From Pseudofrankia coriaricola (lineage in GTDB: Bacteria; Actinomycetota; Actinomycetes; Frankiales; Frankiaceae): a DNA stretch of 64,000 nucleotides. The stretch lies in contig NZ_MBLO01000267.1 in the NCBI RefSeq assembly GCF_001854805.1, positions 37,641-101,640 of the forward strand, in the 5' to 3' direction. A program made the translations under genes and the position numbers. The notes below the pieces were generated by a model. The model was not told the DNA's origin, did not search any database, and worked only from the letters and a program-made list of their open reading frames with translations. This document shows, piece after piece, positions 18,775 through 31,678 of the stretch (positions are counted from its first letter, which is position 1; each line of letters begins with the position of its first letter).

Positions 18775-18828
18775 GCCGTGCTATGGCAGGGAAGACGCCG
18801 TCTGGCGTCTTCCCTGCCATAGCACGGC
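18775..18828. terminator. 25-bp perfect hairpin, bidirectional terminator
   Basis: Bases 18775-18799 and 18804-18828 are perfectly complementary over 25 bp around the 4-nt loop GTCT; the top of the stem is GGGAAGACGCC. It lies between convergent genes (DeoR ending 18664, hydrolase ending 18846), so it should stop transcription from both sides. The length and perfection are unusual. Confidence 0.75.
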
Positions 18829-19907: not shown

Positions 19908-20349
19908 GTTCCGGTGTCTGTCGCCGGAACCCTGAGCACGTCGTCGTCAGAACATGGTGTTGCCGTTGGCGGAACTCTCCGGCACCTCCTGCACGGCGTC
20001 CCAGTGCTCGACGATCCTTCCGTCCCGCACCCGGAAGAGGTCCACGACGGCCTGGCCACGCGTGCCCGGCGTGTCGACGTAGTTGCTGTGAACGGCCACC
20101 AAGTCACCCTCGGCGACGATCCGCTTCGGGATGATCTGCAGCTGCGGGAACTGTGTGAAGTAGGCGCCCAGCCCGGTCTTCACACCTGCCACGCCGTCGG
20201 GGATGTTCGGATTGTGCTGGTCATACTCGGGGCCCACGTACGCGTCGATGGCGGACAGGTCCTTCGTCACCAGGAGCCGGTCGACGAACGCGGTGACCAG
20301 CTTCTTGTTGTACGCGGTGAGCCACGCCGGACCCGGCGCCTCGGTCCGC
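19908..20349. repeat. 442-bp perfect direct repeat, copy 1
   Basis: Identical base for base to 29458-29899, 9550 bp away and in the same orientation. It covers the last part of the terminator hairpin and the C-terminal SnoaL domain of the gene at 19947-20906. At its left edge only the inner half of the hairpin arm (GTTCCGG) is kept, so the duplication break fell inside the terminator. Confidence 0.95.
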
Positions 20350-20906
20350 GGCCGACTGACCGTGGAGAACATGTCGTTGCCGTTGGCCGTGGTCGCCGGC
20401 ACCGCCTGCAGCACATCCCAGTGCTCGGCGATCTTCCCACCCTGGAAACGGAAGATGTCGAACGCGGCAACCCCGCGGGTGCCAGGGGCCAGGACGATGT
20501 TGGAGTGCACGAGCACCAGGTCGCCCTCGGAGATGACCCGCTTGATGTCGTACGCGAGGTCCGGGTACTGCTGGCGCTGGATGGCACCGAAGTACTTGAG
20601 AGCCTCGGAGCCGTCGGGGGCCAGCGGGTTGTGCTGGATGTAGTCCGGCCGTACGAAACGGTCGACGACGGATGTGTCGCCCCGCTCGAAGACACCCTTG
20701 AGAAGCTGGACGGCGACCGCCTTCTGGTAGCCGAGCCGGGCGCTCCCGCCGTATCGGACGCCGAGGGCCTCCGCCGCTCGATCGTGGCCGGGAGCTTTGG
20801 GGTGGGCGGCGGAAGCAGCGGCGGGCACGGCAGCGGCACCGGCGAGAGCGACGCCCATGAGTGCGGCGGCGAAGGTACGGCGGCGGGCGGATGCGGTGGT
20901 GTTCAC
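19947..20906 (-). CDS. Secreted protein with two SnoaL-like domains
   Basis: A 319-residue protein with two tandem SnoaL/NTF2-like domains (about residues 45-175 and 190-319). Each contains the paired pattern Y-x-QHNP and GKIAEHWD or GRIVEHWD. The N-terminus (NTTASARRRTFAAAL, then MGVALAGAAAVPAAASA) is an export signal with an arginine cluster, possibly Tat. The frame is open far upstream, but the GTG at 20906 after GGAGAAGAG begins exactly at the signal peptide. The same double domain is fused behind an oxidoreductase in the copies at 21563 and 27397. SnoaL-like domains often bind or isomerise small hydrophobic or polyketide-like compounds; the activity here is unknown. Confidence 0.85.
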   Translation of the reverse strand: MNTTASARRRTFAAALMGVALAGAAAVPAAASAAHPKAPGHDRAAEALGVRYGGSARLGYQKAVAVQLLKGVFERGDTSVVDRFVRPDYIQHNPLAPDGSEALKYFGAIQRQQYPDLAYDIKRVISEGDLVLVHSNIVLAPGTRGVAAFDIFRFQGGKIAEHWDVLQAVPATTANGNDMFSTVSRPRTEAPGPAWLTAYNKKLVTAFVDRLLVTKDLSAIDAYVGPEYDQHNPNIPDGVAGVKTGLGAYFTQFPQLQIIPKRIVAEGDLVAVHSNYVDTPGTRGQAVVDLFRVRDGRIVEHWDAVQEVPESSANGNTMF

Positions 20907-21012
20907 GGGGCTCTTCTCCGGACTCGGGGATCGAAGGTGTGCTGATCGGTGGGCCGCCTGGTGACGGTGTTCGTCATGTGTCGAGCGTGGCTGCCGCCGC
21001 CGCGCACCACAA

Positions 21013-21026
21013 TGGCACGAATGCCA
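21013..21026. promoter_or_regulatory. Palindrome TGGCA-N4-TGCCA, copy A
   Basis: TGGCACGAATGCCA, a perfect 5-bp inverted repeat with a 4-bp spacer, between the SnoaL gene and the start of a truncated glxA-like gene. The same palindrome stands at the equivalent place in the two other copies of the module (23340, 29185). Candidate operator for the GlxA-type regulator. Confidence 0.6.
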
Positions 21027-21046
21027 ACTTTCGACGGGATCACGCC

Positions 21047-21148
21047 ATGGCGCACCTTCACCGAGTCGTCGTTCTGGCCATCGGCCGGGTGCACCCCTTC
21101 GAACCGGGCATCCCCAGCCGGGTCTTCGGAGCCGCGGACGGCCGCTAA
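21047..21148 (+). pseudogene. GlxA-type regulator, 5' remnant
   Basis: ATG at 21047 opens 33 codons (MAHLHRVVVLAIGRVHP, then RVFGAADGR) that match the start of the intact GlxA regulator at 23374 before a TAA stop. Everything after the DJ-1/PfpI first strand is missing. On the other strand nearby, the codons MTNTVT at 20977 are all that is left of the oxidoreductase start seen in the sister copies. Both ends show that this is a decayed third copy of the module. Confidence 0.75.
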
Positions 21149-21562
21149 ATGATGAACCGGCGCACCGCCACGGCCGGGGAATGGCCTCCGCCCCACAGCA
21201 CGCGCCCGCCCACGCCGCAAGGAGCCCTTCATCACCATGAACGAAGTGACGGGTGAACTCAGCGCCGCCTGACCAGGTAGTGAGAGGGCTGCGGGGTGGC
21301 GGGATGCCACGAGCAGCGCGCCCTGGACGGAGAAGACGGCCGCCAGGGTTCGCGACACCGTGACGGGGCGAAGCACCCGGAGCGGGCCCTACCGGCTCGC
21401 TGCAGCGCACGCAGCGTCTGCAGCGGGCTGGGATACCGGTCGGGTGCACGACACGGGCGTGTTGATGGAAGGTCACTGTGGGCGGGAAGAGTCGAGGACC
21501 TGCTTCACCCGTATGGCCGGCTCAAGGTGCCGTACACGATTCGCGGCGGCCCCCGGCCAGCG
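21149..21562. other. No recognisable gene
   Basis: About 410 bp between the truncated glxA copy and the end of the next SnoaL-containing gene. I found no frame with a family I recognise and no clear hairpin. It probably holds decayed sequence left by the module duplication. Confidence 0.4.
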
Positions 21563-23304
21563 TCAGAACATCGTGTTGTCGTTGGCGGCGCTCTCCGGCA
21601 TGCCCTGCGAGGCGTCCCAGTGCTCGACGATCTTGCCGTCCCGTACCCGGAAGAGGTCGAGGGCCGCCCGGCCGCGCTCGCCCGGCGTGTCGATGTAGTG
21701 GCTGTGCACGGCGACCAGATCCCCCTCGGCGATGACCCGCTTCGGGACCACGCTCAGCTGCGGGAACTGCTCGAAGTACGCGCCCAGCCCGGCCTTCAGA
21801 CCGGCCACGCCGTCGGGGATGGTCGGGCTGTGTTCGTGGTACTCGGCGCCGACGTACGTGTCGATCGCGGCCAGGTCCTTGCGGACCAGGAGCTCGTCGA
21901 GGAACGCGGTGACCAGCTTCTTGTGGTAAGCGGTGAACCACCGCTGACCCGACGCCTCGGTCCGCGGCCGGCTGAGGGTGGCGAACATGTCATTGCCGTT
22001 CGCGGTGGTCGCGGGTACCTCCTGCAGGATGTCCCAGTGCTCGGCGATCTTCCCGTCCTGGAAACGGAAGATGTCGAATACGGCCATACCCGGGGTGCCC
22101 GGCACGAGGACGCTGCGCGAGTGCAGCAGCACCAGGTCGCCGTCGGAGATGGCCCGTCGGGGGGTGAAGGTGGCGGCCGGGAACTGCTGGCGCATGGTGG
22201 AGCTGAAGAACTTGAGGGCGTCGGGGCCGTCGGGCGCCAGGGGGTTGTGCTGGATGTAGTCGGGCCGCACAAGTCGGTCGACGATGGCCGTGTCGCCGCG
22301 CTCGAACACGTCCTGCAGGGCCTGGCCGGCGATCTGCGCCTTTCCGCCCTCCCGTACGGTCAGCACGATCTTGCCGGTGGTGCGGCCGGTCTCGCCGAGG
22401 GCGTGCGCCTTGGCCGCCTCGGCGAGGGGGAAGGTGGCCTCGATATGGGCGCGCAGCGCACCGGTCTCGGCGAGAGCGGCGATGGCCTGCATGCCGGCCT
22501 GGTCGGCCTCGACGATCAACGACTCGTAGCGGATACCCCGCTCCGCGATCGCCGCCAACTCGGCGGCGTCGACGGGCACCGGCAGGATCGAGACCAGGGT
22601 GCCACCCGGACGCAGCACGGCCAGCGAGCGGGCGCGGGCGGCAGCGTCACGCGAGATCGAGTCGAGGACCACGTCGATGTCGCTGACGGCCTCGGCGAAG
22701 TCGACGCTGTGATAGTCGATCACCTCGTCCACACCCAGCGACCGCAGGAAGTCGCGTTTGGCGGCGCTGGCGGTGCCGATCACGTACGCGCCGCGGGACT
22801 TGGCGATCTGCACGGCGAGGTGACCCACGCCGCCGGCCGCCGCGTGGATCAGCACCCGCTGCCCGGTACGGACGCCGGCGGTGTCGACCAAAGCCTGGTA
22901 CGCGGTGAGCGCGGCCAGCGGCAAAGCCCCGACCTGGACGTGGTCGATACCGGCGGGCTTGTGCGCGAACACGCGGGCGGGTGCGGTCACATACTCGGCG
23001 TGCGCACCGACCCCGCCCGGGTAGGGCAGCATCCCGAAGACCTCGTCACCGGGCTTGAACAGGGTGACCCCCATGCCGACCGCCTCGACAACGCCGGACA
23101 CGTGCCAGCCCAGCACGAGCGGCATCCGGGCGATGGTCAGCACCTGGGCGCGGTTCCACCAGTCGGGTTGACCCCGGCCGCGTGGACGGCGACGAGGATC
23201 TCACTCATCCCCGGCACCGGTTTGGGAACGTGGACCTCCTGCAGCACTTCGGGGGTTCCGTAGGTGTCCTGGCTGATGGCCCGCATGGTCTCGGTGTTCG
23301 TCAT
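21563..23304 (-). pseudogene. Oxidoreductase-SnoaL-SnoaL fusion, frameshifted (copy B)
   Basis: Same architecture as the intact copy at 27397-29148: a quinone-oxidoreductase-type MDR domain (AAGGVGHLAVQIAKSRG, VIDYHSVDFAEAV), then two SnoaL domains. The start codon at 23304 (MTNTETMRAI) reads through HAAGVNPT and then loses frame near 23163-23168; the rest continues one frame over (LTIARMPLVLGWHVSG). Compared with copy C, 4 bases are missing where copy C has TCGGTCGG, so loss of one repeat unit by slippage explains it. The downstream part could still be translated from the ATG at 23143, lacking the first MDR strands. Confidence 0.8.
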
Positions 23305-23339
23305 GCGTCCAGCCTGATCGCCGCCACCGTCCCCTACAA

Positions 23340-23353
23340 TGGCATGATTGCCA
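23340..23353. promoter_or_regulatory. Palindrome TGGCA-N4-TGCCA, copy B
   Basis: TGGCATGATTGCCA between the fusion gene (start 23304, minus) and the glxA-like gene (start 23374, plus). At 35 bp from one start and 20 bp from the other it could repress or activate both. Conserved in three module copies. Confidence 0.6.
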
Positions 23354-23373
23354 CCTTTCGACGGGATCCCGCC

Positions 23374-24324
23374 ATGGCCAACGCGCACCGAGTCGTCGTC
23401 CTCGCCACCCACGGGGTGTACCCCTTCGACCTGGGCATCCCGCAACGGGTCTTCGGCGCCGCCGACGGCCGCTACGAGGTCCTGACCTGCACCACCGACG
23501 GCCGCCCGGTCCGCACCAACGCCGACTTCTCGATCACCGTCGAACACGGCCCGGAGGCCTTGCGCACCGCCGACACCGTCATCATCCCGCCCTTCGGCAC
23601 CACCGACTTCAACCGTCAGACACCGGCCGACGTGGCCCAGGCCCTCGCGTACGTGTCCCCCGGCACGCGGATCGTGTCGATCTGCACCGGCGCCTTCGTG
23701 CTCGCCGCCGCGGGACTACTCGACGGACGGCGAGCCACCACACACTGGATTGCCACGGACGTCTTCCGTGACTGGTACCCGCAGGTGGAACTCGACCCGA
23801 ACGTGCTGTTCGTCGACGAGGGCGACGTGCTCACCTCGGCCGGCGCCGCCTCCGGCATCGATGTCTGCCTGCATCTGGTGCGCAAGGACCATGGCAGCGA
23901 GGTCGCCAACCACGTGGCCCGCATGTGCGTCGTCCCGCCGTGGCGCGACGGCGGGCAGGCGCAGTACATCGAGCGTCCGGTCCCCGACGCCGCGGCGAAC
24001 GGAACGTCCGCCGCCCGGCACTGGGCGCTGCAGCACCTGCACCTGCCGCTGACCCTGAGCGACCTCGCCGAGCACTCCCACATGAGCCTGCGCACCTTCG
24101 CCCGCCGCTTCAACGAGGAAGTCGGCATGAGCCCCGGACGCTGGCTCATCCAGCAACGCATCGACCGGGCACGGCACCTCCTGGAATCCACCGATCTCGC
24201 GGTCGACGACATCGCCGGACGCGTCGGCTTCACCGGCGGCACCTCGCTACGCGAACACCTGCACGCCGCCATCGGCGTCTCACCACTGGCCTACCGGCGC
24301 ACCTTCCGAGGTGCCCTGGTATAG
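23374..24324 (+). CDS. GlxA-family AraC-type regulator
   Basis: A 316-residue regulator with an N-terminal DJ-1/PfpI-like domain (HRVVVLATHGVYPFDLGIPQ at the start; ICTGAFVLAAAGLLDGRRAT around the nucleophile-elbow Cys) and a C-terminal AraC double helix-turn-helix (SDLAEHSHMSLRTFARRF and VDDIAGRVGFTGGTSLREH). It is intact. Start at 23374 is preferred because homologues begin at this point; an ATG at 23344 is also in frame but would overlap the palindrome. Divergent from the fusion gene and close to TGGCA-N4-TGCCA, it probably controls that gene, and could also act on the copies at 21013 and 29185. Confidence 0.9.
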   Translation: MANAHRVVVLATHGVYPFDLGIPQRVFGAADGRYEVLTCTTDGRPVRTNADFSITVEHGPEALRTADTVIIPPFGTTDFNRQTPADVAQALAYVSPGTRIVSICTGAFVLAAAGLLDGRRATTHWIATDVFRDWYPQVELDPNVLFVDEGDVLTSAGAASGIDVCLHLVRKDHGSEVANHVARMCVVPPWRDGGQAQYIERPVPDAAANGTSAARHWALQHLHLPLTLSDLAEHSHMSLRTFARRFNEEVGMSPGRWLIQQRIDRARHLLESTDLAVDDIAGRVGFTGGTSLREHLHAAIGVSPLAYRRTFRGALV

Positions 24325-24720
24325 CACCGGCGACCGAACGGTCTGGTGCCCTACGCCGGCCTTCGGCGCCGACAGCGTGAGGACGCTCTGGGTGGCCCTG
24401 ATCGAGGACCCCGTCAGCGAGTTGGCGATCGGCCAGGGCGCGGGACAGTTGCAACGTCGCGACCAGAAGGGCGTAGCGCTGAGCGTCTGCACGCACGCCG
24501 ACCGCGGATCGTGAGGTGCCACCCGGGCGGCGACGTCGTCGATGAGAGCCAGCACGCCGTCGGTGTACGCGCGCCTGGTCGGGTCCGCGCAGCAGGCGAT
24601 CCCATCGAACAGGGTCGGTGGGTCTGCGGCGAAACGGCACCTGGAGCCGCACACCAACGTGCCCGCGGGCAGATTCTCGTGCACAACTCCCTTCCGCTCC
24701 TCGGCGAATGTTGTCGCCGA
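24305..24720 (-). pseudogene. TetR-family regulator remnant
   Basis: Minus-strand sequence in two frames matches the C-terminal half of the TetR gene that follows at 24885. One frame gives AYTDGVLALIDDVAARVAP and HDPRSAC, the other LLVATLQLSRALADRQLADG; compare AYTDGARAIVDEIAVRLAP and TLQLSRALSDQSFADE in the intact gene. No DNA-binding domain remains. A frameshifted and truncated paralogue in the opposite direction. Confidence 0.7.
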
Positions 24721-24811
24721 CCCGAACCGATCAGCGACGGACGACGTGGCAGCCCGACAGCAGAATGCTGCTGGGGTTGATCTCCTTGTGCGCCACGCCG
24801 CGCCCACCATT

Positions 24812-24827
24812 ATATTACGTACATCAT
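24812..24827. promoter_or_regulatory. AT-rich promoter/operator of tetR
   Basis: A short AT-rich island (ATATTACGTACATCAT) in otherwise GC-rich DNA, 57 bp before the TetR start. It contains the palindrome TACGTA. It probably combines the promoter -10 region and an autoregulatory operator. Related sequences with ATTACG are at 25738 and 35462. Confidence 0.35.
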
Positions 24828-24884
24828 GCCATCGGCGTATGCTGGATACGGGCATGGCTGTGAAGAGTAGATGGAGGAGTCCCG

Positions 24885-25457
24885 GTGGCGCGTTACGACA
24901 AGGAGCACAAGCAGGCGACGCGGCAGCGGATCCTCGACACGGCCGGCCATCGGTTCAAGACCGACGGCATCGACGGCTCCGGCGTGGCCACGTTGATGGC
25001 GGACGCGGGGTTGACCAACGGCGCGTTTTACGCCCATTTCTCGTCCAAGGACGACCTGGTCGCCAACGTCGTGGCCGACCAGTTGGGTACCCAGGTCGAG
25101 GGGTTCGGCGCACTGGCGCCCGGCCGGGCGGGGCTGGAGGAGTTTCTGCGTGAGTACCTGTCGCCGCAGCATCGCGACAACCCCGGCGCCGGATGCCCCT
25201 CCGCGGCCCTGCTCGACGAGATCGGGCGCTGCCCGGCCGCGACCAAGGACGCCTACACCGACGGTGCGCGGGCCATCGTGGACGAGATCGCCGTCCGCCT
25301 GGCTCCCGAGGATCCGCAGTCCGCGCGCGGGAAAGCGCTCGGGCTGTACACAATGGCGGTGGGGACGCTGCAGCTGTCCCGGGCCTTGTCCGACCAGAGC
25401 TTCGCCGACGAGGTCCTCGAGCACGGCATCGAGAACGCCCTCGTATTCCTTCGCTGA
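24885..25457 (+). CDS. TetR-family transcriptional regulator
   Basis: A 190-residue TetR regulator. The DNA-binding domain is typical (RQRILDTAGHRFKTDG, then LMADAGLTNGAFYAHFSSKDDLV at about residues 35-57). The C-terminal domain resembles AcrR/YcdC-type regulators (GCPSAALLDEIGRCPA, TLQLSRALSDQSFADEVL). GTG start at 24885 after GGAGGAG. It faces the remnant of an alpha/beta-hydrolase gene, so its original target may have been that gene; the intact hydrolase lies at 33981. Confidence 0.92.
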   Translation: MARYDKEHKQATRQRILDTAGHRFKTDGIDGSGVATLMADAGLTNGAFYAHFSSKDDLVANVVADQLGTQVEGFGALAPGRAGLEEFLREYLSPQHRDNPGAGCPSAALLDEIGRCPAATKDAYTDGARAIVDEIAVRLAPEDPQSARGKALGLYTMAVGTLQLSRALSDQSFADEVLEHGIENALVFLR

Positions 25458-25522
25458 GCAGCACCTGAGGCGTTCCACGGCACGGCCCCCTCGACCGCGA
25501 CGGGGCCGATTCCCTTGCGGTG

Positions 25523-25715
25523 CTACCGCTGGAGGAATGCGAGGGCCTTGGCGACGAACTGCCCGTGAAACTGGAAGATGCCACTGTGCCGGCGTCGGGG
25601 TACATCACCAGGTCGCTGGCCGGCAGGCACCGGGCCAAGTCGACCGAGTTCGTCGTCGGCACCATCCGGTCGCTCTCGCCGCTGGCGCGAGCACGGGCTG
25701 GTGGATGACGGAGAG
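25523..25715 (-). pseudogene. Alpha/beta hydrolase, 3' remnant
   Basis: The last 60 or so codons of a hydrolase related to the intact gene at 33981-34850, split over two frames: one gives DRMVPTTNSVDLARCLPAS and LVMYPDAG, the other SGIFQFHGQFVAKALAFLQR. Same stop position and nearly the same wording as the intact protein. The similarity ends abruptly near 25715, where unrelated AT-rich sequence begins. Confidence 0.8.
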
Positions 25716-25963
25716 GTCCTTCGAAGGAACATTAGATTATGATCGTAACTGCCATGGTCGCCGCCGCGCAGGGGTACGGCGGCGAGTTCGAGGATCGCTT
25801 CGTGTTCGCGATCCTGCGCTCCGCCACCTTCGAGGTCGAGCGCGACGAGAGCGGCGTCGTACCACGGAGGCGCTATCACGATGGCAGTCTCGCGCGCCGT
25901 GCGGTCAGGCATCCGCCCACCGCGCCGCACACTCCCCCAGCTCATCGCCTCGACGTCCGTCCG

Positions 25964-26430
25964 TCAGCCGTCGGCCGGCCCCGACTGACTGCCGGTGATG
26001 TTCCATCCGTGGACAGCGAAGTTCCGGCTCGTTGCGTACAACTCAACGCCGAGCCGCGTGTACGGGTAGGTGTTATCGGGAAGCGCCCCCATCGGGAACC
26101 ATGCGATGCGGGAACACTTGTGCGGTTCGGCGTTGACCGGCTCGCCATCCCAGCGCTGCGGCAGAAAGAACAAGCCCAGTCTTCCCTCCCCGTGCTCGTT
26201 CCGGAAATGCACCGTCGAAACGAGGGTGAGCGACGCCGGGTCCAGGCGAAGGCCGACCTCCTCGCGGGCCTCACGGCACAGCGCGGCAGCGGCATCCTCC
26301 CCAGCTTCGAGTTTGCCGAAGGGAGGTTGAACCAGCCGTCGGCGACTATCTGGACCTGACGGGGCACTGTCAGACACGCCCGCCACGCGCGACTCCGCGC
26401 CCCTTCTGCTCCGTAGCTAACAGTACGTTG
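25964..26430 (-). pseudogene. Nudix hydrolase, frameshifted
   Basis: The frame ending at 25964 holds a complete Nudix box, GKLEAGEDAAAALCREAREE followed by VGL, plus the usual C-terminal half (VSTVHFRNEHGEGRLGLFF). The expected segment just before it, CLTVPRQVQIVADGWFNLP, lies in a neighbouring frame and joins the box at a CCC run near 26325, where one base seems lost. Nudix enzymes hydrolyse nucleoside-diphosphate-linked compounds. A shortened protein could start at the GTG at 26386 but would lack the first strands. Confidence 0.65.
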
Positions 26431-26456
26431 CTGACCACTGTTCACGACGGGGAGCG

Positions 26457-27358
26457 ATGGGAGACCGGTGGGTGCGGGTTCGGCGAGTGGTCGGGTGCGG
26501 TGCCCGGCGGGAGACATACACGGTCGTCGGCGATGACGGCCACGTGGTCGAGCCGGTGGATGACTTCCTGGCGATGTGCACGGACCGGGAGTACTCCCCG
26601 AACACGATCCGGGCCCGCGCGCACGATCTGGTGCTGTGGCTGCGGTTTCTGGCGGCTGTCCACGTCGAGCTGTCGGCCGTGTCCGCGGAGCACGTTGACC
26701 AGTTCGCCGGCTGGCTGCGGCGGCCGGTCGACGCGGGCAGACTGGTGGCCGCAGATTCGGTGTTCCCGGTCCGGGAGGCGACGACGGTCAACCGGGCGCT
26801 CGACAGCGTTTATATGTTCTACGAGTTTCTGGCCCGGCGCGGCGTCAAGGTCGCCGCCCAGCTGGTAGTGGTGCGCCGCCGGGTCGGCGGTGAGGATCGC
26901 AGCTTCCTGGCTGGTATCGCTCCGGGCACCTCGGCGGTTCGCCCGACGAAACTGAAGACGGTCAAACGTCGTCCGGCAACGTTGACCGACGGACAGGTGC
27001 AGGCTGTTCTGGACGGCTGCGTGCGGCTGCGGGACCGGTTCCTGATGGCGCTGATGTTCGAGACCGGCTGTCGGATCGGGCAGGCGCTGGTGCTGCGCCA
27101 CGAGGACATCGACACCGATCGGCGGTCGATAGTCCTGCTGCCGCGGGAGGACAACGTGAACCGGGCGCGGGGGAAGAACCGCGAGTCCAAGGAGATCCCG
27201 GTCCGCCGTTCCCTGTGCGATCTCTACGTGGACTATCTGTTCGCCGAGTACGGGGAGTTGGAGTCGGACTATGTGTTCGCGAACCTGTGGGGACGGGCCG
27301 GTCGGGGCGCCGATGTGTACTGAGGAACTGGAGGTGAAGATCAGTTGCAGGCGCTGAC
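26457..27358 (+). pseudogene. Tyrosine recombinase/integrase, truncated
   Basis: A phage- or plasmid-type tyrosine recombinase. The core-binding domain is present (NTIRARAHDLVLWLRFL, TVNRALDSVYMFYEFLARRG) and the catalytic domain begins with the first Arg in FETGCRIGQALVLRHED. The open frame stops at 27323. The expected continuation GAPMCTEELEVKIS is found one frame over from about 27300, so a frameshift is likely. The HxxR and Tyr catalytic boxes are absent; the sequence runs instead into the terminator at 27359. It cannot be active. It marks an old integration event beside the duplicated module. Confidence 0.8.
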
Positions 27359-27390
27359 CAGGGGTCGTAGCGCAACCGCTACGACCCCTG
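27359..27390. terminator. 14-bp hairpin terminator
   Basis: CAGGGGTCGTAGCG (27359-27372) pairs perfectly with 27377-27390 around the loop CAAC. It lies 6 bp beyond the stop of the fusion gene at 27397 and should terminate that minus-strand transcript. Confidence 0.7.
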
Positions 27391-27396
27391 AGGCCG

Positions 27397-29148
27397 TCAG
27401 AACATCGTGTTGTCGTTGGCGGCGGTCTCCGGCACGTCCTGCACGGCATCCCAGTGCTCGACGATCTTTCCGTCCCTGACCCGGAAGAGGTCGATGACCG
27501 CCCGGCCGCGCTCGCCCGGGGTCTCGACGTAGTGGCTGTGGACGGCCACCAGGTCACCCTCGGCGATGATCCGCTTCGGGGTGATCGTCAGCTGCGGGAG
27601 CTGCTCGAAGTACGCACCCGCTCCGGCCTTCACGCCAGCCACGCCGTCGGGGAAGTTCGGGCTGTGCTGGTGGTATTCGGGGCCCACGTAGGTGTCGATG
27701 GCGGCCAGGTCCTTGCCGACCAGGAGCTGGTCGACGAACGCGGTGACCAGCTTCTTGTTGTAGGCGGTGAACCACCGCTCCCCTGGCACCTCGACCTGCG
27801 GCCGGGAGAGGGTGGAGAACATGTCGTTGCCGTTGGCCGTGGTCGCCGGCACCTCCTGGAGGATGTCCCAGTGCTCGGCAATCTTCCCTTCCTGGAAGCG
27901 GAAGATGTCGAAGACGGCCATCCCGGGGGTACCGGGGACCAGGACGCCACTGGAGTGCAGGAGCACCAGGTCGCCCTCCGACAGGACCCGCAGGACGTCG
28001 AACGTGGCGTCCGGGAACTGCGCTCGCATGCCGGCGCCGAACGCCTTCATGGCCTCGGGGCCGTCAGGGGCCAGCGGGTTGTGCTGGATGTAGTCCGGCC
28101 GCACGTGGCGCTCGACGACGGCCGTGTCGCCCCCGTCGAACACGGTCCTGAGGACTTGGGCGGCGATCTGCGTCTTCACCGTCCCCTCCACGGTCAGCAC
28201 GATCTTGCCGGTGGTGCGGCCGGTCTCGCCCAGGGCGTGGGCCCTGGCGGCCTCGGCGAGCGGGAAGGTGGCCTCGACGTGCGCGCGCAGGGCGCCGGCT
28301 TCGACCAGGTCGGCGATGGCTTGCATGCCGACGCGGTCGGCCTCGACGAGGAGGATCTCGAAGCGGATGCCCCGCTCGGCGATGTCCGCCAGCTCGTCGG
28401 GGCCGACGGGCACCGGAAGGATCGAGACGAGGGTGCCTCCCGGGCGCAGCACCGCGAGGGAGCGGGCGCGGGCGGCGCCGTCCAGCGAGACCGAGTCGAG
28501 GACCACGTCGACGTCCTTGACGGCCTCGGCGATGTCGACCGTGTGGTAATCGATGGTCTCGTCCACTCCCAGGGAACGCAGGAAGCCGTGCTTGGCGGCA
28601 CTGGCGGTGCCGATGACGTACGCGCCACGGGACTTGGCGATCTGGACGGCAAGATGGCCGACGCCGCCGGCCGCCGCGTGGATGAGGACCCGCTGCCCGG
28701 GCTGGACATCGGCGGTGTCGACGAGCGCCTGGTAGGCGGTCAGGGCCGCGAGCGGCAGGGCGCCGGCCTGGACGTGGTCGATACCGGCGGGCTTGTGGAC
28801 GAAGGCGCGGGCGGGGGCGGTCACGTACTCGGCGTGGGAGCCGACCCCGTGGGGGTAGGGCAGCATGCCGAAGACCTCGTCACCCGGCTTGAACAGGGTG
28901 ACGCCGCTGCCGACGGCCGCGACGACTCCGGAGACGTCCCAACCAAGAACGAGGGGCAGGCGGTCGACGGTCATGGCCTGGGCGCGGTTCCACCAGTCGG
29001 TCGGATTGACGCCGGCCGCACGGACGGCGATCAGGATCTCACTCACCCCGGGCTCGGGCCGGGGCAGTTCGACCTCCTTGAGCACCTCGGGGGAACCGTG
29101 GACGTCCTGTCGGATGGCGCGCATCGTGGCGGTACTGGGATTCGTCAT
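27397..29148 (-). CDS. Quinone oxidoreductase fused to two SnoaL domains (copy C)
   Basis: A 583-residue fusion. Residues about 1-325 are a zinc-free NADPH:quinone-oxidoreductase-type MDR domain: PLVLGWDVSGVVAAVG, KPGDEVFGMLPYP, the nucleotide loop IHAAAGGVGHLAVQIAKSRG and the ITDYH-like TIDYHTVDIAEAV. Residues about 330-450 and 460-583 are two SnoaL/NTF2-like domains, each with QHNP or QHSP and a GKI(A/V)EHWD motif. The ATG at 29148 (MTNPSTATMRAI) matches the other copies. The fusion suggests that the reduced enone or quinone product is handed to a cyclase- or isomerase-like pocket, but no substrate is visible. Preceded by the TGGCA-N4-TGCCA palindrome and followed by a strong terminator. 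Confidence 0.88.
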   Translation of the reverse strand: MTNPSTATMRAIRQDVHGSPEVLKEVELPRPEPGVSEILIAVRAAGVNPTDWWNRAQAMTVDRLPLVLGWDVSGVVAAVGSGVTLFKPGDEVFGMLPYPHGVGSHAEYVTAPARAFVHKPAGIDHVQAGALPLAALTAYQALVDTADVQPGQRVLIHAAAGGVGHLAVQIAKSRGAYVIGTASAAKHGFLRSLGVDETIDYHTVDIAEAVKDVDVVLDSVSLDGAARARSLAVLRPGGTLVSILPVPVGPDELADIAERGIRFEILLVEADRVGMQAIADLVEAGALRAHVEATFPLAEAARAHALGETGRTTGKIVLTVEGTVKTQIAAQVLRTVFDGGDTAVVERHVRPDYIQHNPLAPDGPEAMKAFGAGMRAQFPDATFDVLRVLSEGDLVLLHSSGVLVPGTPGMAVFDIFRFQEGKIAEHWDILQEVPATTANGNDMFSTLSRPQVEVPGERWFTAYNKKLVTAFVDQLLVGKDLAAIDTYVGPEYHQHSPNFPDGVAGVKAGAGAYFEQLPQLTITPKRIIAEGDLVAVHSHYVETPGERGRAVIDLFRVRDGKIVEHWDAVQDVPETAANDNTMF

Positions 29149-29184
29149 GCGTCCACCGTCGCTGTCCGCGACCCCCAAGCACCA

Positions 29185-29198
29185 TGGCATGAATGCCA
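29185..29198. promoter_or_regulatory. Palindrome TGGCA-N4-TGCCA, copy C
   Basis: TGGCATGAATGCCA, 36 bp upstream of the fusion gene. Next to it the sequence TTTTCAACGGGATTCTGCCA still resembles the stretch before the intact glxA start, but the reading frame that followed is gone. The operator has survived the loss of its neighbouring regulator. Confidence 0.6.
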
Positions 29199-29448
29199 AT
29201 TTTCAACGGGATTCTGCCACTACGTAAGTCGTCGATTCGGTGTCGGCCACACCCAGGCTCGCCGCGTTCGGCAACTGCCGGTCTACTTCACCGGGCGATG
29301 CCTTTCATGGCGTGATGCAGAACCGGTGGGGCCGGCACTCCGAGCCCGACCGGTCGACCCCCGCCTTGCCCGGCCACGTCCTGACCTTCGGTCGCACCTG
29401 ATCATTTGAACCATCGGCCTTCTGGAGGGAGCCGACGCGTGAAAAGCA

Positions 29449-29489
29449 GTGCTCAGGGTTCCGGTGTCTGTCGCCGGAACCCTGAGCAC
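29449..29489. terminator. Hairpin terminator, complete copy
   Basis: A perfect 16-bp stem: GTGCTCAGGGTTCCGG (29449-29464) pairs with 29474-29489 over a 9-nt loop. Directly downstream of the SnoaL fragment. The equivalent place after the gene at 19947 keeps only 7 bp of the left arm, so this copy shows the original terminator. Confidence 0.7.
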
Positions 29490-29899
29490 GTCGTCGTCAG
29501 AACATGGTGTTGCCGTTGGCGGAACTCTCCGGCACCTCCTGCACGGCGTCCCAGTGCTCGACGATCCTTCCGTCCCGCACCCGGAAGAGGTCCACGACGG
29601 CCTGGCCACGCGTGCCCGGCGTGTCGACGTAGTTGCTGTGAACGGCCACCAAGTCACCCTCGGCGACGATCCGCTTCGGGATGATCTGCAGCTGCGGGAA
29701 CTGTGTGAAGTAGGCGCCCAGCCCGGTCTTCACACCTGCCACGCCGTCGGGGATGTTCGGATTGTGCTGGTCATACTCGGGGCCCACGTACGCGTCGATG
29801 GCGGACAGGTCCTTCGTCACCAGGAGCCGGTCGACGAACGCGGTGACCAGCTTCTTGTTGTACGCGGTGAGCCACGCCGGACCCGGCGCCTCGGTCCGC
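29458..29899. repeat. 442-bp perfect direct repeat, copy 2
   Basis: Identical to 19908-20349. It holds the terminator loop and the C-terminal SnoaL domain. Identity ends sharply at 29899/20349, after which the two flanks are unrelated. Confidence 0.95.
29497..29899 (-). pseudogene. SnoaL-domain fragment
   Basis: The last 133 codons of the secreted SnoaL protein, identical to 19947-20349 (from TEAPGPAWLTAYNKK to ESSANGNTMF). The frame is open upstream into unrelated sequence up to 30105, but no signal peptide or first domain is present, so it is a fragment without its own start. Confidence 0.85.
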
Positions 29900-30256: not shown

Positions 30257-30284
30257 CGCCTCGCCCCTCGCGGGGCCGGACATC
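30245..30284. terminator. Bidirectional hairpin terminator
   Basis: GCGCCCGTCTGA (30245-30256) pairs perfectly with 30273-30284; an inner GCCCC/GGGGC stem strengthens it. On the plus strand it is followed by CTTTCC. It separates a plus-strand gene fragment from the superoxide dismutase gene ending at 30308. Confidence 0.6.
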
Positions 30285-30307
30285 AGACGGGCGCCTTTCC
30301 GTGCATG

Positions 30308-30909
30308 TCAGGCGGGCTTGGCCGCGGTGTAGCGGGTGGCCACGTCGGCCCAGTTGACGATGTCCCACAGGGCGGTGACGTAGTCGGCCTTGACGTTCTT
30401 GTACTGTAGGTACCAGGCCTGCTCCCAGGCGTCGAAGACGAGCAGCGCGGTGTTGCCGATGCCGACGTTGCTCTGGTGGTCGTAGACCTGCTCGACGAGG
30501 AGACGGCCGGAGAGCTGGTCGTAGGCGAGCACGCCCCAGCCGGACCCCTGGACCGTGGTGGTTGCCGCGGTGAGCTGCGCCTTGAAGCCGTCGAAGGACC
30601 CGAAAGACGCGTCGATGGCGTCGGCGAGCGCGCCGTCGGGCTTGTCGCCGCCGTCTGGGACAGGTTCTGCGTGTAGATCGAGTGCAGGATGTGTCCGGAG
30701 ACGTTGAACGCCAAGGTCTTCTCCAGCCCGACGATCGCGGCGAAGTCGCCCTTCTCCCGTGCTTCGGTGAGCTTGTCCAGGGTGGTGTTGGCTCCGGCGA
30801 CGTAGGTCGCGTGGTGCTTGTCGTGGTGCAGTTCCAGGATCTCCCCCGAGATCGCCGGTTCCAGGTCGGCGTAGTCGTAGGGAAGATCCGGCAGGTTGTA
30901 GATCGCCAC
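30308..30909 (-). pseudogene. Fe/Mn superoxide dismutase, frameshifted
   Basis: A manganese/iron superoxide dismutase in two frames. From GTG 30909 the first frame gives [15 protein letters not shown], the ligand segment LELHHDKHH (His28) and [12 protein letters not shown] (His76). Near 30660 one base appears missing; the next frame gives [16 protein letters not shown] and then [19 protein letters not shown] to the end [13 protein letters not shown]. The usual D-x-W-E-H metal motif reads [14 protein letters not shown] here, so the last metal-ligand His is replaced by Gln. The frameshift and the lost ligand both argue that it no longer works. Confidence 0.8.
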
Positions 30910-30970
30910 GATGCGGCCTCGCGGTCTGCCGTTTCGACGAGCTCCAGAAGGGCGGCCAACAGGCTCTAGG

Positions 30971-31678
30971 CTAGGACGCAAGGAACGGCGCGTACCGACT
31001 GTCGAACGCCAGGTGGAGCTGGGATCGCACAGCGCGAGCGAGGTCATCTGCCAGCACTTCGTCGGCCCCGCTCTCCAGACCGTCGAGCACCTGGGAGACG
31101 ACGTCTCGAGGGGAGGCCTTCGGGGCGTCGACGCCTGAAGTCATGTCAGTGTCGACGTAACCCATGTGCACGCCGAGCACCTGTACACCGCGTGGGCGAA
31201 GCTCCAGACGCATTGCCTCGGTTGCGCTCCACAGCGCGGCCTTCGAGGCGCTGTAGCTCTGTCCGACGGCGAGCCACGCCAGCACCGACGCCACGTTCAC
31301 TACCGCGCCGGACCTCTCGACCACACCGTCGATGAACGCAGAGGTCACCGCCAGCGGCCCCAGGAAGTTGACCTCCAGCTCTCGCCGCAGTTTGGTGGTA
31401 TCAGGCTCGAGAACTGAGGTGGGCGTGCTGATTCCTGCGTTGTTGACCACGATGCTCACGTCCGATGCCACACCGGCGGCCCGACGGATCGACTCGGGAT
31501 CAGTGACGTCAAGTTGTAGCGCCACGACTCGCGGGTCACGGCTGTCTATCGATCTCGGGTCTCGCGCCCCCGCGAATATCTTCGCGACTCCACGCTCGGT
31601 CAGCTGGGCGACGAACTCACGTCCCAGGCCGCGGTTGGCTCCGGTGACGAGAACAACCCGGTCGTCAAGTCTGGTCAC
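30971..31678 (-). CDS. Short-chain dehydrogenase/reductase
   Basis: A 235-residue SDR. Cofactor loop [16 protein letters not shown] (about residues 11-26), [15 protein letters not shown], the catalytic Ser in [10 protein letters not shown] and YSASKAAL. The C-terminal region ([13 protein letters not shown]) is typical of small carbonyl-reductase-like SDRs. Substrate unknown. It lies alone between a broken superoxide dismutase and transposon debris, with no partner gene. Confidence 0.88.

Follow-up and report, generated by a model that had tools for sequence, protein, structure and literature searches.

Gene content of the locus

The stretch of Pseudofrankia coriaricola DNA analyzed here (64,000 nucleotides of contig NZ_MBLO01000267.1, hereafter the window) contains three related modules, A, B and C, each combining a target gene on the minus strand with a glxA-type regulator gene, or what is left of it, on the plus strand, and with a short conserved element between the two (Table 1). 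A sequence-only reading had described them as three decaying copies of one unit, each with a SnoaL-type gene, a TGGCA-N4-TGCCA palindrome and the start of a glxA gene. SnoaL-type sequences are indeed present on the minus strand at all three places, with the amendment that B and C each encode the SnoaL pair as part of a fusion with an MDR-type oxidoreductase. The states described for glxA, one intact, one cut to 33 codons and one nearly gone, were recovered as such: B retains 316 codons and A 33, while on the plus-strand side of C no glxA frame was found, likeness to relatives fading at the element, after which a short trace resembles the spacer of split relatives. Decay is only part of the picture: glxA has been lost at A and C and the target of B is broken, but A and C both retain open target genes, and it is the broken target that lies beside the only intact glxA. 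In module A the overlap between the stop of the MDR relic and the GTG of the SnoaL gene would allow coupled translation.

Sequence profile analysis of the intact GlxA protein recovered a DJ-1/PfpI domain followed by an AraC-type double helix-turn-helix (HTH), with matches to PF01965 (64.8 bits), PF12833 (74.6 bits) and PF00165 (55.1 bits) that all exceed their cut-offs. The DJ-1 domain is similar to isonitrile hydratase in the surroundings of its cysteine, from which we would guess, by analogy, that the signal is a reactive small molecule.

A 36-bp element with three half-sites

The palindrome is exact at 21013, 23340 and 29185, and these three occurrences in the window compare with a mean of 0.08 over 100 shuffled versions, the count staying below three in every one. 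Across the 11.2-Mb genome it occurs exactly at seven places, against 29 for the same pattern read backwards, so the bare 14-mer is not diagnostic; it was rejected as a marker, four of the seven places being devoid of the longer element of which it is a part. Alignment of ortholog loci revealed that the palindrome forms the left part of a 36-bp element with the consensus ATGGCATGATTGCCATCTTTCGACGGGATCGTGCCA, and it is this element, rather than the palindrome, that is the functional unit. Of its three TGGCA half-sites, one is in forward and two are in reverse orientation; read on the minus strand, the latter two form direct repeats, 21 bp apart, that are directed toward the MDR or SnoaL gene. 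All 15 half-site bases are retained in C, and 14 of the 15 in each of A and B. A profile built from 24 distinct elements, with the window copies excluded, recovered three strong sites in the whole genome, all of them within the window, the next best match having an expectation value (E) of 0.63. Together with the conservation described below, this element is probably the operator of the AdpA-like GlxA protein, combining an activator site for the target with a site for autoregulation.

Table 1. Coordinates of the elements and genes of the three modules
Feature	Position	Strand	Remarks
Operator A (putative), 36 bp	21012..21047	+	Half-sites TGGCA, TGCCA, CGCCA; profile E 2.2e-11; alignment
Operator B (putative), 36 bp	23339..23374	+	Half-sites TGGCA, TGCCA, CGCCA; profile E 5.4e-12; alignment
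Operator C (putative), 36 bp	29184..29219	+	Half-sites TGGCA, TGCCA, TGCCA; profile E 1.9e-8; alignment
Copy A target, two-domain (tandem) SnoaL, 319 aa, twin-arginine-like start	19947..20906	-	GTG at 20906; Pfam SnoaL_2 + SnoaL
Copy A relic of MDR start, 24 codons	20903..20977	-	Stop overlaps GTG of SnoaL gene
Copy A glxA remnant, 33 codons then stop	21047..21148	+	
Copy B target, MDR-SnoaL-SnoaL, frame broken near MDR codon 50	21563..23304	-	Pieces 23304-23161 and 23164-21563
Copy B glxA, sole intact copy, DJ-1/PfpI domain + AraC-type HTH, 316 aa	23374..24324	+	Pfam
Copy C target, intact MDR-SnoaL-SnoaL, 583 aa	27397..29148	-	
Piece D, 442 bp	29458..29899	-	100% identical to 3' end of copy A (19908-20349)

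Conservation of the element across genomes

Searches with the regulator recovered 38 loci, of which 35 (L031-L065) are orthologs or close relatives; the other three (L066-L068) are weak matches only and were excluded. The sequence-only reading had proposed the recurrence of the palindrome at such loci as a check on its operator. Of the 35, 27 have an exact copy no more than 130 bp upstream of their glxA match, and alignment places the longer element upstream of glxA in 34, usually in common with a divergent MDR gene. The single locus without it is that of Kribbella (L064), in which both MDR and glxA are truncated at the junction, and the weakest elements are those of L034 and L063. In 28 of 33 tallied rows the third half-site continues into the T of an ATG, the other five (L036, L044, L045, L050 and L057) having the half-site without that ATG. 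The SnoaL pair is seen in five of the 35 loci. What had been taken for a make-up without named relatives belongs instead to a widespread type of divergent pair, in which an AdpA/GlxA-type AraC-family regulator gene stands opposite an MDR gene. Sequence comparison indicates that the element is genuine and deeply conserved, the probable operator of a regulator of known kind.

The profile matched 24 of the 25 ortholog-locus genomes tried (25 of 35 given), the miss being Kribbella. More broadly, matches were found in 24 of the 393 genomes from the class, a count that includes G000 and one of the seven other genomes of the window's own genus, and in 111 of 295 Streptomyces genomes (the genus of G076). 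By these matches the window's genome has three sites and others mostly one. The 124 distinct contexts include 88 with MDR and glxA on opposite sides of the element, 14 with MDR only, 16 with glxA only and six with neither; target-side elements before MDR genes without an adjoining glxA are also found in other genomes.

A related arrangement extends to 28 more distant GlxA homologues (L003-L030). The outer half-sites at the same spacing (TGGC-N27-GCCA) occur within 160 bp upstream in 21 of them, against about 0.15 expected from shuffles, and the identity of the homologues ranges from 48-64% in the highest cases sampled down to 45%. At many of these loci the pair TGGCA/TGCCA is replaced by TGGCC/GGCCA; the fifth base is complementary to its partner in 18 of the 21 sites, and the middle half-site is more variable. 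An MDR relative (30-64% identity) is divergently encoded on the other strand in 13 of the 28. Two of the distant loci (L010 and L013) come from other genomes within the window's own genus, which thus possesses a TGGCC-type pair of its own, whereas A, B and C follow the TGGCA type found in other families. To the left of the element in L180 (G001) and L189 (G381), more distant GlxA genes with a similar element are divergent from genes for other small enzymes that are, by their letters, isochorismatase-like and HD-domain-like, so that the type of operator may be a marker of a wider set of regulators.

Spacing and usage of the half-sites

Of 122 distinct upstream sequences, 90 have a recognized MDR-like start, and in 88 of these the distance from the end of the element to the MDR start codon is 35-37 nt. 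With this spacing the proximal half-site would lie beside the -35 region if the mRNA begins with the start codon or close to it; leaderless mRNAs are described as common in mycobacteria (PMC3898074).

Some genomes have the element in doubled or split form, which provides a natural series from which the role of each half-site might be read. The palindrome is kept in none of ten elements that adjoin only glxA (L085, L091, L097, L117, L156, L163, L166, L168, L170 and L172) and in ten of 14 that adjoin only a target (Fisher p 0.0006), or in nine of 13 of the latter when window C is left out (p 0.0016). Six of the 16 glxA-only rows were excluded from this comparison, four as distant regulators (L092, L108, L128 and L131) and two for having a SnoaL target opposite (L094 and window A); with all 16 counted the palindrome is kept in four. 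The third half-site is kept in all ten glxA-only and in 13 of the 14 target-only elements. These counts suggest that the palindrome is required by the target promoter, and mainly the right half by the promoter of the regulator itself, a dissection to be taken as a pointer only, because the rows share ancestry and were grouped after they had been seen.

Ancestry of the modules

In the SnoaL tree, copy A pairs with a SnoaL copy beside glxA of S. diastatochromogenes (L035; support 99/98) and copy B groups with Nonomuraea, Kribbella and G051 (98/97). Copy C joins A, the same L035 copy and L164/L178 with values (85/87) that fall short of firm support. The MDR tree, a quick tree with support from the Shimodaira-Hasegawa-like approximate likelihood ratio test (SH-aLRT) only, places B with Nonomuraea, Actinoplanes and G051 (98) and C with Streptomyces and Nocardioides rows (98). 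Since the copies belong, in the two trees, to different lineages from other genera, none of the three is a fresh duplicate, and a recent duplication in place was rejected; judging from these trees, they are old lineages brought together. The earlier proposal that the operator is either under selection or recently duplicated is thereby narrowed, its conservation standing and recent duplication falling away. A similar mix occurs in S. diastatochromogenes, in which a frame-broken SnoaL pair with a signal-like start adjoins glxA and a second module, MDR-SnoaL-SnoaL with its own element, lies 2.3 kb away.

Against relatives, the ratios of nonsynonymous to synonymous substitution rates (dN/dS) in copy B are 0.20 for glxA, 0.14 for the MDR part and 0.38 for SnoaL; the SnoaL gene of A gives 0.31, and C gives 0.31 for MDR and 0.56 for SnoaL. 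Given these values, the frame break in B looks young, or may be an assembly error.

Neighboring features

Piece D is the only fresh copy among the modules. The 442-bp repeat that it forms with the end of copy A, its two copies 9.5 kb apart, contains a terminator-like hairpin and is either a recent copy or an assembly effect. A phage-integrase-type recombinase (26457-27323; Pfam PF00589 and PF02899) directly precedes the C module and may have a bearing on how the modules came together. TetR-type fragments (24395-24612, minus strand) lie beside an open TetR gene (24885-25457, plus strand), and at the Nonomuraea locus L031 a TetR relative with 87% identity directly follows glxA. Elsewhere in the window, a perfect inverted repeat with 25-nt arms and a 4-nt loop (18775-18828) has a terminator-like look and lies between convergent genes. 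The first half of a frame at 30283-31047 is, by its letters, Mn/Fe superoxide dismutase-like, after which the likeness runs out of frame.

Proposed mechanism and alternatives

These observations lead us to propose, as the probable reading, that the 36-bp element is an operator read by the GlxA protein encoded from 23374, which would activate the targets, repress its own synthesis and serve all three modules in trans. GlxA, with its AdpA-like DNA-binding domain, would most likely bind the element. On the target side, as the geometry suggests, it could act as a class II activator of a leaderless or nearly leaderless mRNA. Toward glxA, there is overlap of the element with both the start codon and the presumed transcription start, so that binding would limit the protein's own synthesis. 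Three modules of different ancestry would have come together in this genome, and two of them could have lost glxA because one regulator serves all three, their target promoters keeping the operator afterwards. The earlier suggestion that a single regulator controls several dispersed targets fits this state of the genes, an intact glxA beside a broken target with A and C open but lacking their own; indeed, if A and C are regulated at all, trans action follows, since the only intact glxA adjoins the broken target.

Activation is our first choice for the action of GlxA and repression its main rival. In the latter case the same protein at the same operator would repress both divergent genes until released by a ligand or by oxidation of the DJ-1 domain. 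The element sits between both starts and near each, and a repressor there would block either promoter; the fixed spacing before MDR and the retention of the palindrome on the target side, though compatible with repression, suit the position of an activator better, and we regard repression as somewhat unlikely. It is rather doubtful that the sites at A and C are inactive relics, left over from module decay and no longer under regulation, an explanation to which the loss of glxA at both, the persistence of an element beside a decayed glxA in another genome (G066) and the broken genes and 442-bp repeat nearby lend some weight. However, the targets of A and C are open and have dN/dS below 1 against relatives, the broken target being that of B; their half-sites are almost fully retained, and in other genomes too elements without glxA precede MDR genes. 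Least probable is another reader of the element, either AdpA itself, of whose boxes the half-sites are versions with one mismatch, or the TetR-type regulator whose gene follows glxA both here and in Nonomuraea. The TetR protein was rejected as the reader, relatives of it occurring in four of the 35 ortholog loci (L031, L032, L033 and L064) against 34 for the element; moreover, the element accompanies glxA homologues down to the distant set, and it occurs only three times in this genome as against the hundreds of targets of AdpA.

Several findings weigh against the reading in terms of a GlxA-activated MDR operator. There is no clear -10 or -35 box in the upstream sequences examined, so it is the spacing that points to a leaderless start. 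The profile finds no match in 184 of the 295 Streptomyces genomes. In G001, of the window's own genus, a related element precedes a GlxA gene (48% identity) whose divergent neighbor is isochorismatase-like by its letters, and the family is therefore wider than the MDR target. In G066 (L095/L101) the element remnant beside the decayed glxA has no MDR gene and a changed first half-site, and remains of the element can thus outlive its function. Finally, since the sites are AdpA boxes but for one mismatch, AdpA could bind them too.

The three modules seem an instructive case of the sharing of one regulator, in which a self-contained regulator-target pair becomes a multi-site regulon when related modules stack and spare regulators drop out. 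As a tentative generalization, for which the case is less than even, the module might move between genera as target, operator and regulator together; arrivals would fall under the resident GlxA, and spare regulators would be lost while operators stay, giving a small trans-acting regulon in which the palindrome persists at target sites and only the right half at the site of the regulator itself.

Comparison with known systems

The best full-length named model for GlxA is FtrA (NCBIfam NF006902), an identity that was rejected, its 324 bits falling below the curated cut-off of 425 bits. The nearest solved relative is the DNA-binding domain of AdpA (3w6v, E 8.7e-27), the match covering the AraC domain part only and denoting likeness rather than established orthology. 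AdpA of Streptomyces has the same domain order, DJ-1/PfpI followed by AraC HTH (PMC8994273), and its DNA-reading Arg-262 and Arg-266, in the numbering of that paper, would by our placement fall in an RTFxRRF motif that is RTFDRRF in 3w6v and RTFARRF in the window protein. The AdpA box, given as TGGCSNGWWY, differs by one base (A for S) from the half-site TGGCATGATT of the window clade, and the sites of the distant GlxA relatives often have TGGCC. AdpA is described as a global regulator of hundreds of genes, whereas the window GlxA has its own divergent target and three fixed sites in the genome. SAV742 of S. avermitilis is likewise an AraC-family regulator from Streptomyces with negative autoregulation, but its inverted repeats, reported as GCCGA/TCGGC with free spacing (PMC5107987), are a different motif, by which it was rejected as the same system.

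In the open-licence PubMed Central literature, which leaves out most subscription journals, the letters TGGCATGATTGCCA had no match, and no title was found on the pair (MDR/GlxA, AraC/PfpI with quinone oxidoreductase, or the SnoaL fusion). The arrangement is of a known kind, a divergent AraC-family regulator and target, with an operator that is itself undescribed in the literature searched, and the analysis yields a precise predicted operator and target for a common, apparently undescribed clade of AdpA-like regulators. A known system of this kind is araC/araBAD, in which regulator and target are divergent and two direct repeats 21 bp apart (araI1-I2) precede the target. The present element shares both the divergent layout and the 21-bp direct repeats before the target, and differs in its third half-site, which makes the palindrome, and in the other sensor domain of GlxA.

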